Assembly (NCBI RefSeq): GCF_023204875.1
Contig: NZ_CP096247.1
Location: 806,001-870,000 of the forward strand
DNA length: 64,000 nt
Direction: 5' to 3'
DNA from: Prevotella sp. E15-22
GTDB taxonomy: Bacteria; Bacteroidota; Bacteroidia; Bacteroidales; Bacteroidaceae
This document shows positions 33,428 to 62,272 of this stretch, in pieces. Position 1 is the stretch's first letter. Each line of letters starts with the position of its first letter. The notes beneath the pieces were generated by a model. That model did no database searches. It had not been told where the DNA came from and saw only the letters and a list, made by a program, of their open reading frames with translations. Position numbers and translations under genes: made by a program.

Positions 33428-33435
33428 CAAAGGTA
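33428..33435 (-). promoter_or_regulatory. -7 box of dapF-dapL-asnB
   Basis: TACCTTTG on the minus strand, 30 nt before the dapF start; exactly 62 nt separate it from the nitrogen motif at 33498-33511. Confidence 0.65.
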
Positions 33436-33497
33436 GCGCAAAAAACGTAAATCACCAAAAAACTTGTTGCTTTTGGAAACATCGCAAAAAGGAAAAG

Positions 33498-33511
33498 TGA
33501 CAATCTGTTAC
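33498..33511 (-). promoter_or_regulatory. Candidate nitrogen-regulon site, dapF promoter
   Basis: Read toward dapF: GTAACAGATTGTCA, 12 of 14 matches to the consensus CTTACAGATTGTCA built from this window. The protein that binds it is unknown. Confidence 0.6.
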
Positions 33512-33623
33512 TTTTTTCTTGAATTATTGTTGTTTTGTAACTTTCATTGTATTTTCTCACGCCTTTTTGTTACAATTCGTAAAATTAATACGATTGCATG
33601 GAGATATATTCAAACTATTTATG

Positions 33624-33631
33624 TACCTTTG
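33624..33631 (+). promoter_or_regulatory. -7 box of the STM3941-like gene
   Basis: TACCTTTG 29 nt before the ATG at 33661. No nitrogen motif lies at the 62-nt position. Confidence 0.6.
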
Positions 33632-33660
33632 CAAATAGTAATCATTAAAATTTAAAAGAA

Positions 33661-34170
33661 ATGCAAGAAATTAAGATTTATCATTCTGTCTGGAGAACGC
33701 TTCTTCTTTTGCTTTGTGGTGCTGCATTCACGTATGCCAGTGTAATGATCCTCATGGATTCTCGAACAAATTTTTTCATGAATATAATCGCTGTTATAGG
33801 TGTTGTTTTCTTTGGCTTGGGCTCTCTCTTCATGCTGATTATGGTCGTCAGGGAGCGACTAGCCCATCAGCCATTCATGACCATCACAGACAAGAGCGTC
33901 ATTGTTCGTGGAACGAAAGCCTTTGTTGTTAACTTCTCGGATGTGCAGTCCTTCAAGATGATTCATGTGGGATCGCAGAAGTTTGTTGCCATCCATTATA
34001 AACCTAACGTTGAAGTTCAGAAAATGGAGGATGCCAGTTTCTTGGGTCGTATGGTTCGTCGAATTAATATGGGAGTTGGAGATGCTCAGGAGCATCTGGG
34101 TACCACTGGAATGAGCATGAAAATAGAGGAACTGTTCAGCATCCTGAACGATCGACTGAAACAAGCATAA
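33661..34170 (+). CDS. STM3941-like membrane protein
   Basis: A 169-residue protein with two N-terminal membrane helices (about residues 10-30 and 38-60) and a cytosolic beta-rich domain (about 70-165; FMTITDKSVIVRGTKAFVVNFSDV) that resembles the PH-like fold of STM3941-family proteins. Function is unknown. It is a single gene with its own promoter and terminator, divergent from dapF. Confidence 0.7.
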   Translation: MQEIKIYHSVWRTLLLLLCGAAFTYASVMILMDSRTNFFMNIIAVIGVVFFGLGSLFMLIMVVRERLAHQPFMTITDKSVIVRGTKAFVVNFSDVQSFKMIHVGSQKFVAIHYKPNVEVQKMEDASFLGRMVRRINMGVGDAQEHLGTTGMSMKIEELFSILNDRLKQA

Positions 34171-58723: not shown

Positions 58724-58747
58724 CAGTCCATAAAATACATTCGTTTT

Positions 58748-60343
58748 ATGGACACAAAATATATCTTTGTTACGGGCGGTGTCGTTTCCTCGTTGGGAAA
58801 AGGCATTATCTCCGCCTCCATTGGAAAATTGCTGCAAGCACGTGGCTATAAAGTAACCATCCAGAAGTTTGACCCCTACATTAACATTGACCCAGGTACA
58901 CTGAACCCCTATGAGCATGGCGAGTGCTATGTGACGGCTGATGGCATGGAGACCGACCTGGACCTGGGCCACTATGAGCGCTTCACAGGTATTCATACCT
59001 CACGCCATAACTCTATCACCACAGGACGTATCTATAAGACGGTGATAGACCGCGAGCGCCGTGGTGACTATCTGGGCAAGACCATTCAGGTGGTGCCCCA
59101 TATCACGGATGAGATTAAGCGCAGAATGCTGCGAGAGGACGAAGAGGGCGAACAGCTAGACTTCGTGATTACTGAGGTGGGCGGCACCATCGGCGATATT
59201 GAGAGTGCACCCTTTATGGAGGCCATCAGACAGTTGCGCTGGCAATTGGGCAGAAACGCCGTGTGTGTGCACCTCACCTACGTACCTTATCTGAAGGCTG
59301 CCGATGAGTTGAAGACCAAGCCTACACAGCACTCTGTCAAAGAGTTGCAGGGCATGGGTATCCAGCCCGATATTCTGGTGCTGCGCACAGAGCGTCATCT
59401 GGATGATGGCATGAGAATGAAGGTGGCATCGTTCTGTAATGTGGATCTGGAGTGCGTGGTGCAGAGTGAGGATATGCCCTCTATCTATGAGGTGCCCGTC
59501 AGCATGCAGCATCAGGGGCTCGACGCTGCCATCCTTCGCAAGATTGGCATCCCCGTGGGCGAAACGCCTGCAATGAAGCCTTGGCACGACTTCCTTGACA
59601 AGCAGCGCAATGCTACGAAGGAAGTACACATCGGACTCGTTGGTAAATACGATCTGCAGGATGCGTATAAGAGTATCCGCGAGAGTCTGAACCTGGCTGG
59701 CATATATAATGATGTAAAAGCCAAGCTTCACTTTATTAACAGTGAGGAGGTGACAAAAGATAATATCGCCGAGAAACTGAAGGGAATGCAGGGCGTGCTG
59801 ATCTGTCCGGGCTTCGGTCAGCGAGGCATCGAGGGTAAGATCGTGGCAGCGGAATACACTCGTACACACGATATCCCAACATTTGGCATCTGCCTGGGCA
59901 TGCAGATGATGGTCATCGAGTTTGCACGCAACGTACTGGGCTACAAAGATGCAAATAGTGCGGAGATGGACGATAAGACGCCACATAACGTGATTGATAT
60001 CATGGAGGAACAGAAATCCATCACGCAGATGGGCGGTACCATGCGACTGGGTGCCTATGAGTGTGAGCTGATAAAAGGCAGTAAAGTTTACGAGGCCTAT
60101 GGCGACGAGACATTGATTTCTGAGCGCCATCGCCACCGCTATGAGTTCAATAACAAGTATCAGGAGGAGTACGAGGCCAAGGGCATGAAATGCGTGGGTA
60201 TCAACCCTGCTGCCAACCTGGTCGAGATTGTGGAGATTCCAGAGAAGCGCTGGTACATTGGCACGCAGTTCCATCCCGAATATTCTTCTACGGTGCTGCA
60301 TCCCCATCCATTGTTTATGAGTTTTATTAAAGCCTGCAAATAA
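58748..60343 (+). CDS. pyrG: CTP synthase
   Basis: A 531-residue enzyme that aminates UTP to CTP using glutamine. The N-terminal synthase domain starts [20 protein letters not shown] with the P-loop; the C-terminal class I glutaminase has the nucleophile Cys in [11 protein letters not shown] (about 382) and the HPE triad end FHPEYSSTV. The start is ATG 58748; an upstream in-frame ATG lies within the promoter. purF follows after 6 bp. The promoter carries the nitrogen motif, consistent with control by glutamine supply. Confidence 0.95.
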
Positions 60344-60349
60344 ACATCT

Positions 60350-62209
60350 ATGGAACAGCTGAAGCATGAGTGTGGCGTGGCGATGATTCGCCTGTTGAAG
60401 CCGCTGGATTATTACGAGAAGAAATACGGTACTTGGACCTATGGTTTCAACAAGCTCTATCTGATGATGGAGAAACAGCACAACCGTGGACAGGAGGGTG
60501 CTGGTATTGCATCGGTGAGTCTGACCAACGAGCCTGGCACGGAATATATGTTTCGTGAGAAGGCCGAAGGCAAGGGCGCTATCACGGAGATCTTCTCGAG
60601 AGTGACAGAGGAGATGAAGGGCGAGTTGCTGATGGGACATCTGCGCTATTCGACCACGGGTAAGAGCGGACTGACATTTGTTCATCCCTTCCTGCGTCGT
60701 AACAACTGGCGCGCCAAGAACCTCTGCCTGTGCGGCAACTTCAACATGACGAACATTGACGAGGTCTTCTCTTTCCTCACAGAACAGGGACAGAGTCCAC
60801 GTATCTATGGTGACTCGTACATCACGCTGGAGCTGATGGGTCATCGCTTGGACCGCGAGGTGGAACGACTCTACCAGGAGGCTACGGCACAAGGACTGAA
60901 AGGCACTGACATCACCAATTATATTGATGAACATGTGGAGATGGCCAACGTGCTGCGCTCTACGATGGAGCATTACGACGGTGGCTATGTGATGTGTGGA
61001 CTGACGGGCTCGGGCGAGATGTTCTCTGTACGCGATCCGTGGGGCATCCGTCCGGCGTTCTATTATCGTGACGATGAGCTGATTGCCATCGCCAGCGAGC
61101 GCCCTGTGCTGCAGACCACTTTTGATATTCAGGCTGAGGATGTGCACGAGTTGCTGCCTGGTCAGGCTCTGATTATTCATAAGAGTGGCGAGAGTAGACT
61201 GGAACAGATTATGCCTGCCCAGAAGTTGAGTGCCTGCTCGTTCGAGCGCATCTACTTCAGTCGCGGTTCTGATTGTGATATCTATCAGGAGCGCAAACGA
61301 CTGGGAGAGCAGTTGACGCCAGCCATCCTCAAAGCTATCGACTTTGACGTAACCAACACAGTATTTTCATATATTCCCAACACAGCCGAGGTGGCCTTCT
61401 ATGGCATGACCGACGGTTTCCGCAAGCTTGCGATTGAGCGAGAGGAATCGGAGCTTGCTCAGATTCCCGAGCGTGAGCAAGTTCGAACGAAGTTCAAACT
61501 ACATGGCGAGGTGCGCACAGAGAAAGTGGTGTGGAAAGACATCAAACTGCGCACCTTTATTGCCGACAACAGTGAGCGCAACGACCTGGCTGCCCACGTC
61601 TATGACATCAGCTATGGTTCGCTGGAGGCAGGAAAGGACAACCTGGTGATTATCGACGACTCCATCGTACGTGGCACCACACTGAAGGAGAGTATCTTCA
61701 AGATTCTGGACCGTTTGCATCCCAAGAAGATTGTAATGGTGAGCAGTTCGCCACAGATCCGCTATCCTGATTACTATGGCATCGATATGGCACGCCTGGA
61801 GGAGTTTTGCGCTTTCCGTGCTACAATGGCACTGATTGAGGAACGCGGCATGTGGCAGTTGATTAACGACACCTATCTGGCTTGTAAGCGTGAGTTGGAG
61901 AAACCTAAGGAAGAGATGGTGAACTGCGTGCGCGCTATCTATGCACCTTTCACCGTCGACGAGATCAACCAGAAGATTGTGGAGATGTTGCGCCCTGCCG
62001 ATATGAAGGCACCCATCGAACTGGTGTTCCAGAGCATCGAAGGATTGCACGAGGCTTGTCCTAATCACCCTGGCGACTGGTACTTCACAGGTCATTATCC
62101 CACACCAGGCGGCGTGAAATTGGTGAACCAGGCGTTTGTGAACTACATTAACAAAACTTACACTTTGAAAGAAAACGATGGGTGTTTACTTTCAGATTGT
62201 AAGAAGTGA
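60350..62209 (+). CDS. purF: Amidophosphoribosyltransferase (PurF family, long form)
   Basis: A 619-residue enzyme for the first committed purine step (PRPP plus glutamine to phosphoribosylamine). The Ntn nucleophile is Cys8 (HECGVAMIRL) after a short propeptide; the glutaminase signature NRGQEGAGIA follows. The PRPP-binding motif VIIDDSIVRGTT is near residue 435. It is ~120 residues longer than enteric PurF, with an extended middle and C-terminus; a paralog with another role is possible. It is probably co-transcribed with pyrG. Its last codons contain the nitrogen motif used by the glnN promoter. Confidence 0.88.
   Translation: MEQLKHECGVAMIRLLKPLDYYEKKYGTWTYGFNKLYLMMEKQHNRGQEGAGIASVSLTNEPGTEYMFREKAEGKGAITEIFSRVTEEMKGELLMGHLRYSTTGKSGLTFVHPFLRRNNWRAKNLCLCGNFNMTNIDEVFSFLTEQGQSPRIYGDSYITLELMGHRLDREVERLYQEATAQGLKGTDITNYIDEHVEMANVLRSTMEHYDGGYVMCGLTGSGEMFSVRDPWGIRPAFYYRDDELIAIASERPVLQTTFDIQAEDVHELLPGQALIIHKSGESRLEQIMPAQKLSACSFERIYFSRGSDCDIYQERKRLGEQLTPAILKAIDFDVTNTVFSYIPNTAEVAFYGMTDGFRKLAIEREESELAQIPEREQVRTKFKLHGEVRTEKVVWKDIKLRTFIADNSERNDLAAHVYDISYGSLEAGKDNLVIIDDSIVRGTTLKESIFKILDRLHPKKIVMVSSSPQIRYPDYYGIDMARLEEFCAFRATMALIEERGMWQLINDTYLACKRELEKPKEEMVNCVRAIYAPFTVDEINQKIVEMLRPADMKAPIELVFQSIEGLHEACPNHPGDWYFTGHYPTPGGVKLVNQAFVNYINKTYTLKENDGCLLSDCKK
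62189..62202 (+). promoter_or_regulatory. Candidate nitrogen-regulon site, glnN promoter (inside the purF end)
   Basis: CTTTCAGATTGTAA (12 of 14 to consensus), 62 nt before the glnN -7 box. Confidence 0.65.
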
Positions 62210-62264
62210 AAAGATTTTAGATTTTTGTTGCAATATTAATGCAGACCAATCTGACAGAACGATA

Positions 62265-62272
62265 TACCTTTG
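62265..62272 (+). promoter_or_regulatory. -7 box of glnN
   Basis: TACCTTTG 39 nt before the glnN ATG. Confidence 0.65.

Follow-up and report, generated by a model that had tools for sequence, protein, structure and literature searches.

Among the described systems of nitrogen control, NtrC with sigma-54 in enteric bacteria acts on genes of the glnK-amt, glutamine synthetase and glutamate synthase type, and GlnR/TnrA, NtcA and the actinobacterial GlnR are regulators dedicated to the genes for PII, Amt and glutamine synthetase. Here we describe an array of short CAnnnTG cores, held at fixed positions before genes of the same kind, in Prevotella sp. E15-22 (NZ_CP096247.1, positions 806,001-870,000 of the forward strand; this whole 64,000-nt stretch is hereafter the window). 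Unlike NtrC/sigma-54 promoters with their -24/-12 elements, the nitrogen promoters align on TAnnTTTG, the known main-sigma promoter type of Bacteroidota. GlnR/TnrA and NtcA sites (TGTnAn7TnACA; GTAn8TAC) have half-sites that are reversed or otherwise spaced relative to those of the array. A nearer relation is to the operators of the Lrp/AsnC family, for which passages of PMC2995911 describe clustered imperfect inverted repeats of 13-17 bp with an AT centre, two or three turns apart centre to centre. Of two members, BarR has spacers of 15-17 and 27-29 bp in passages of PMC10201364, and Sa-Lrp is reported to respond to glutamine (PMC3584215). Palindrome size, AT-rich centre, clustering on one face and targets in amino-acid metabolism are common to the array and to this family (E. 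coli Lrp, AsnC, FL11, BarR and Sa-Lrp). In contrast to Lrp/AsnC operators, the array described here keeps its cores at fixed distances from the -7 boxes of many separate operons, extends over about 140 bp with one-turn spacings among its intervals, and would define a general nitrogen-assimilation regulon. Lrp/AsnC arrays as such are already known; what appears to be new is a variant locked in position and serving as a general nitrogen regulon in Bacteroidota. An earlier note on this DNA, made without database searches, knew of no described regulator with such a site; nor did titles and abstract openings yield a nitrogen regulator or operator for Bacteroides or Prevotella, in a search that left most subscription literature outside its scope.

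Nitrogen promoters of the window and of its relatives carry a phased and conserved array, specific to these genes, whose central palindrome, TTACAnnnTGTnA, also stands at lrpB, the gene of an AsnC-like protein. We consider it probable that the array marks a single nitrogen regulon and that LrpB reads it, wrapping the promoters and repressing lrpB itself. Such a regulon would cover ammonia uptake and assimilation together with glutamine use, namely glnK-amt with an outer membrane protein gene, gltBD, glnN, dapF-dapL, asnB, amt2 and pyrG, and carAB in relatives.

The earlier note had drawn attention to a 14-bp motif before five of these promoters, exactly 62 nt from the TAnnTTTG box. All five sites are in place, and each lies exactly 62 nt before an exact box. 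Of the 12 or 13 matches out of 14 claimed per site only the lower figure holds, as every site has 12. A matrix trained on 60 promoters from other genomes, with own-genome data left out, gave the ranks and scores below, and a profile model for genome scans, built from 56 promoters, gave the E-values. Core positions are given relative to the T that begins the -7 box. The promoters, including a sixth at gltB, are as follows.

33428..33584, minus strand: promoter array of dapF-dapL-asnB; central site GTAACAGATTGTCA at 33498-33511, -7 box TACCTTTG at 33435-33428 (rank 6, full score 22.6, E 2.9e-5).
34550..34706, minus strand: promoter array of amt2, a deleted copy; central site ATTACAGATTGACA at 34620-34633, -7 box TAATTTTG at 34557-34550, extra site at -145, 34692-34705 (rank 1, score 57.9, E 2.1e-12).
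46300..46425, minus strand: promoter array of glnK-amt-outer membrane protein; central site CTTACAATTTGTCA at 46370-46383, -7 box TAATTTTG at 46307-46300, -104 copy at 46401-46414 (rank 3, score 45.0, E 1.4e-9).
46510..46666, plus strand: promoter array of gltB-gltD-pdxS-pdxT (a presumed operon, judged by the order of the genes); -145 copy at 46511-46524, -7 box TATCTTTG at 46659-46666 (rank 5, score 32.4, E 5.3e-6).
58638..58723, plus strand: promoter array of pyrG-(PurF-like), with poor outer cores; central site CTTGCAGATTGTTA at 58640-58653, -7 box TAACTTTG at 58716-58723 (rank 4, score 34.2, E 1.6e-8).
62147..62272, plus strand: promoter array of glnN; central site CTTTCAGATTGTAA at 62189-62202, -7 box TACCTTTG at 62265-62272 (rank 2, score 46.0, E 1.5e-9).

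The geometry is strict. When sites with up to three mismatches were sought 30-99 nt before any of the 52 exact TAnnTTTG boxes of the window, five pairs were found, all with a gap of 62. Throughout the 3.335-Mb genome, the 13-mer followed by N62 and TAnnTTTG occurs four times with at most one mismatch, always within the window, and seven times with at most two (five in the window) against none for the reversed control. At three mismatches the count is 12 against 5 reversed. The motif without the spacing requirement gives weaker evidence, with 12 matches in the window where 5.72 are expected. Over both strands of the window the top six positions of the other-genome matrix are amt2, glnN, glnK, pyrG, gltB and dapF, with scores from 57.9 down to 22.6, and the next position scores -6.7. 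Without the central motif and box the ranks become amt2 1, gltB 2, glnN 6, glnK 7, pyrG 26 and dapF 75; pyrG and dapF in the window therefore depend mainly on the central site and box. The rank of gltB, fifth among all window positions with its -7 box at 46659, contradicts the earlier view that this promoter lacks the site. Moreover, near-matches at 34692, 46401 and 46511 are by arithmetic themselves array members (amt2 -145, glnK -104, gltB -145), the -145 copies corresponding to a peak at -146 in relatives. The profile found the same six promoters in the whole genome (E 2.1e-12 to 2.9e-5) and, among them in score, one further match at C1:105662 (L212:1501-1634; E 7.3e-7). This match precedes genes that by eye resemble a porin and a sodium symporter, and it fits only with a phase-breaking insertion. 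At the second glnN paralogue of this genome only the -7 part matches the profile (L233).

Upstream of orthologues chosen by protein, some of whose loci had been fetched via the pattern, the gap of 62 is the commonest or tied: 32 of 118 regions for glnK (many from distant taxa), 11/20 for amt2, 8/44 for glnN, 6/24 for pyrG and 7/39 for dapF, there tied with 93. It was through the side peaks of these counts, at 93/94 and 31, that the array was recognised. A gapless alignment of 63 promoters gated on the -72 site has ungated peaks at -115, -104, -41 and -10. For a neutral alignment, whichever exact TAnnTTTG lay closest to the start codon served as the -7 box, in 74 non-redundant nitrogen promoters and 288 control promoters. 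The pair C.....G then stands at -72 in 52 of the nitrogen promoters (31 of the controls), at -10 in 46 (20), at -41 in 38 (9), at -104 in 35 (17) and at -115 in 29 (18); the next position reaches 10, and the highest column count in 500 circular-shift sets was 12. Both sets contain loci fetched through matches to the -72 pattern, and the count at -72 thus owes something to selection in each set. Collection of the nitrogen rows preceded the profile scans, and the controls include loci which those scans fetched; this bias therefore runs against the array. Of the five places, nitrogen promoters have none occupied in 6 cases, one in 6, two in 25, three in 15, four in 11 and all five in 11, and no core at all is found in 222/288 controls. 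The pyrG promoters have the fewest (mean 1.2 of five; 5 promoters). Longer upstream sequence, available for 69 promoters, adds cores at -146 (28) and -136 (21).

An idealised promoter would thus carry CAnnnTG cores at about -146, -136, -115, -104, -72, -41 and -10, with TTACAnnnTGTnA the strongest, though some promoters lack one or more of the cores. Counted from -10 the distances are 31, 62, 94, 105, 126 and 136, all within 1 bp of multiples of 10.5, and this helical phasing would align the cores along a single face of some 140 bp of DNA. The central palindrome occupies 13 bp (-75..-63) as a 5-3-5 dyad and fits an imperfect inverted repeat of 13-17 bp with an AT-rich centre. The cores at -104, -72, -41 and -10 are 31-32 bp apart, that is 18-19 bp between 13-bp sites, with the one-turn pairs -115/-104 and -146/-136 besides; several sites thus share one helix face at two or three turns, the arrangement of Lrp/AsnC operators. 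The fixed position relative to the -7 box, first seen in the window, holds in the promoters of relatives as well. The earlier note had one activator bound about 80 bp upstream of transcription start: a single shared regulator is still the simplest reading, and the lone site has given way, in relatives, to up to seven phased cores that reach the -7 box.

That these counts reflect chance, or a promoter feature general to the genus, has a negligible probability in our estimation. It would agree with a motif that alone is only about twice as frequent as expected in the window, and with the lack of a gap-62 excess for the exact pattern among 151 family genomes (4/90 matches over 31 gaps, with 8 at gap 72), a set which includes only ten genomes of the genus and a pattern which detects few of the true sites. 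The reversed-pattern controls, the 288 control promoters, the circular shifts and the ranking free of own-genome data are all contrary to it.

The array is also specific to certain genes. In 17 relatives the profile gave 59 matches at E<1e-6, every one before glnK, gltB, glnN, dapF, asnB, amt2, pyrG or carAB (the last accounting for two), and the first match outside nitrogen metabolism, before mraZ, appears at E 1.3e-6. Many of these promoters belonged to the training set, and the weight of 59/59 therefore lies in the lack of other genes among the matches, not in the recovery of nitrogen promoters. The proposals that the sites are confined to genes of ammonia and glutamine use, and that orthologous promoters of relatives keep them, are thereby borne out. 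Three genomes without GlnK (G003, G004, G016) have no match at this threshold, and a fourth (G009), likewise without it, has matches at gltB and amt2. The cores might instead be mainly phased A-tracts that bend the DNA and form an upstream element, without a regulator devoted to them, and they are indeed CAAAATG-like A-tracts in helical phase. However, the neutral test scores only a C and a G 6 bp apart and not A-richness, the 59 matches are confined to nitrogen genes, and 222/288 control promoters are free of cores at the five places; we regard this explanation as very improbable.

Among 60 genomes of the genus, the pattern with at most two mismatches occurs in 27 and a looser palindrome pattern with at most one mismatch in 32, with fewer matches for the reversed controls. 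Where relatives of window genes adjoin these matches they are nitrogen genes (glnK, gltB, glnN, dapF, pyrG and the second amt), and matches without such a neighbour (e.g. L003, L004, L010, L011, L024) are probably due to chance. The large family and order sets were scanned under stricter filters. Thirteen of the 151 family genomes have matches at E<=1e-6. Eight of these genomes belong to other genera; six of their eight matches lie before omp-glnK, dapF, dapL or gltB, and the remaining two (L365, L366) lie elsewhere. Gap-62 sites also stand between divergent glnK and gltB in two more genera (G137, G089). At the level of the order, matches at E<=1e-5 are confined to 2/148 other genomes, and just one of the two precedes a dapF-like gene; an array beyond the family was rejected on this count. 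By eye, no array precedes glnK in Bacteroides and Flavobacteriia.

From the form and spacing of the sites we propose a regulator of the Lrp/AsnC family. The domain PF01037 is present in 99/100 genus genomes, and Prevotella sp. E15-22 has three Lrp/AsnC proteins: LrpA, beside metH, LrpB and LrpC. LrpB, encoded at C1:193802-194272, belongs to the family by its AsnC-type helix-turn-helix (HTH; PF13404, E 1.3e-15) and its ligand-binding domain (PF01037, E 2.3e-19), and its nearest solved structures are AsnC (2cg4, E 2.2e-29) and FL11/PH1519. It scores under the cut-off of the NCBI AsnC equivalog NF008384 (144 bits vs 227) and is therefore called AsnC-like rather than filed as AsnC. The gene directly before which it stands (L298:2774-4492) fuses Peptidase_C26 to a membrane dipeptidase M19 domain, and by eye a similar protein follows lrpB in the loci read, including those of genomes without the array.

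The motif pattern alone retrieved, blind, two lrpB loci of other genera, with the palindrome just upstream of lrpB. In 250-bp upstream regions of 69 lrpB genes, which include both of these loci, the exact palindrome occurs in 16 (0.21 expected) and with at most one mismatch in 42 (5.65 expected), compared with 0/32 for lrpA and 1/8 for lrpC. At one place, +9..+21 of the last box, a 13-mer within one mismatch of the palindrome is found in 36/62 lrpB promoters (16 exact), 0/28 of lrpA and 0/7 of lrpC. Among 55 non-redundant lrpB promoters the palindrome has its C at +12 in 50 and its G at +18 in 39, and a second CAnnnTG, with its C at -30 in 30 promoters and its G at -24 in 46, lies four turns (42 bp) away. 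Self-control through an own site is common in the Lrp/AsnC family; the 36/62 lrpB promoters have such a site, which is degenerate in Prevotella sp. E15-22. Its place over the start of lrpB suggests self-repression, whereby LrpB would bind this copy of the palindrome, immediately behind the -7 box of lrpB, and hold down its own expression.

Several observations weigh against LrpB as the reader of the array. The lrpB gene is not near the nitrogen cluster, and no regulator gene recurs there among 459 open reading frames (ORFs) of 43 sources, on which ground a regulator encoded inside the cluster was also rejected. The array does not follow from the presence of LrpB, which genomes lacking array matches have too (G003, G016), and the lrpB palindrome persists where GlnK is missing (e.g. 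L402, L403, L407). In our own genome this palindrome is degenerate (TATCATAATGCAA, 2 mismatches), and some relatives that bear the array have a poor one or none (L310 of G028, L319 of G044). Most outer cores of the window are degenerate, pyrG and dapF falling to 26th and 75th without central motif and box. Spacings of 10-11 bp (-146/-136, -115/-104) are too tight for two separate 13-bp dimer sites, and one-turn spacings have no counterpart in the Lrp passages of PMC2995911 and PMC10201364. Lastly, LrpC is 44% identical to LrpB and has a similar recognition helix. The array might then be read by another regulator, LrpC or a non-Lrp protein for instance, which would also control lrpB. The missing cluster regulator, the occurrence of LrpB without the array and the likeness of LrpC would agree with this, as would the 11-bp direct repeats, which suit other families as well. 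On the other hand, the palindrome over the lrpB start (36/62) is the usual sign of self-control and fails at both paralogues, and the type of site and three-turn spacing suit Lrp/AsnC as described in passages of PMC2995911. We judge another regulator unlikely, while giving it appreciable weight.

LrpA was rejected as the regulator, as the array-bearing genomes G028 and G044 (99% complete) show only LrpB and LrpC, and lrpA, at the loci inspected, has metY or metH as a neighbour and carries no palindrome. By hand counts made from the profile start position alone, a class A (LrpA) match is present in at least 30 of 40 genomes with a GlnK more than 80% identical and in at least 12 of the other 60.

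If LrpB is the reader, it would bind as an oligomer, wrap the promoter DNA and turn promoters up or down with the supply of an amino acid, perhaps glutamine- or asparagine-like. More tentatively, and we lean slightly against it, a single AsnC-like octamer would wrap about 140 bp up to the -7 box by means of the seven-core position-locked array. This nucleosome-like switch would read glutamine or asparagine directly, a Prevotella-type nitrogen control without NtrC, GlnR or NtcA. The word activator in the earlier note went further than the DNA does, as repression too could follow from a core next to the -7 box. A missing -33 element was rejected as a mark of activator dependence, TTG standing there in 39/74 nitrogen promoters and 158/288 controls.

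Expression data exist for Prevotella ruminicola 23. According to passages of PMC5552732, ammonium alters the transcripts of amtB, the gene of the next membrane protein, glnK, asnB, glnN-2 and gltBD by 27-69 fold, with dapF and pyrG included in the 4-fold set; amtB, glnK, asnB, glnN-2, gltB, gltD, dapF and pyrG are thus both ammonium-responsive there and array genes here. These passages contradict each other on direction, the text describing induction under limiting ammonium and a legend giving the highest values in non-limiting ammonium. Transcript levels in the same source are seemingly higher on ammonium than on peptides, which would suit a regulator that senses amino acids. The main text of PMC5552732 contains the words promoter, motif, Lrp and AsnC 0 times, and its passages name no DNA-binding regulator for this response of P. 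ruminicola. To the question of how Bacteroidota, dominant in gut and rumen, sense nitrogen, the array contributes an exactly defined operator, a regulon of few genes and a single candidate protein. If LrpB reads it, the relatives of Prevotella have a nitrogen-control system of their own.

The target genes in the window are these.

29598..33430, minus strand: dapF, dapL, asnB operon.
34261..34518, minus strand: Amt2 remnant (85 aa) with large internal deletions.
44607..45863, minus strand: amt, ammonium transporter, in the glnK operon (TIGR00836, E 3e-124).
45894..46241, minus strand: glnK, PII protein (NF008111, E 1.3e-22, under its curated cut-off).
46570..51273, plus strand: gltB ORF, glutamate synthase large subunit (NCBIfam GltB match beginning at ORF residue 58).
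58721..60343, plus strand: pyrG ORF, CTP synthase; the listed start overlaps the promoter and the real start is slightly downstream.
62312..64000, plus strand, running off the window: glnN, type III glutamine synthetase (GSIII_N, E 3.8e-80).

Since the GltB match begins only at residue 58, the real gltB start lies downstream of the promoter; the listed ORF begins upstream of its own promoter, and the true start is probably near 46741. What had been labelled a mini-Amt is better described as a second Amt, full-length in relatives, that has lost internal parts here: its 85 aa align to the N-terminus and last residues of that protein of about 460 aa. The deleted gene has kept the array promoter that scores highest in the window, and a close relative (G050) carries a longer copy. 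Downstream of pyrG, in relatives read as well as here, follows a PurF-like protein (60350-62209, plus strand) which scores under the purF cut-off and is probably a glutamine amidotransferase. Behind amt, at 43726-44442 (minus strand), a protein of 238 aa with no Pfam match is by eye a presumed outer membrane protein; it is the positional counterpart of PRU_1977 of P. ruminicola, which has a 58-fold ammonium response, and it precedes glnK in other genera.

Beside the glnK operon, at 42727-43710 (minus strand), a shortened N-terminal ThiD/Phos_pyr_kin domain is fused to a C-terminal AraC-type HTH. Its adjacency and its HTH would speak for it as regulator of the array. However, it was found in 1/267 loci examined, there beside pdxST, and the array is widespread; it was rejected, and its being the regulator is scarcely credible. 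As the gene lies directly before pdxST in that locus (L032), it is possibly a regulator of vitamin B6.

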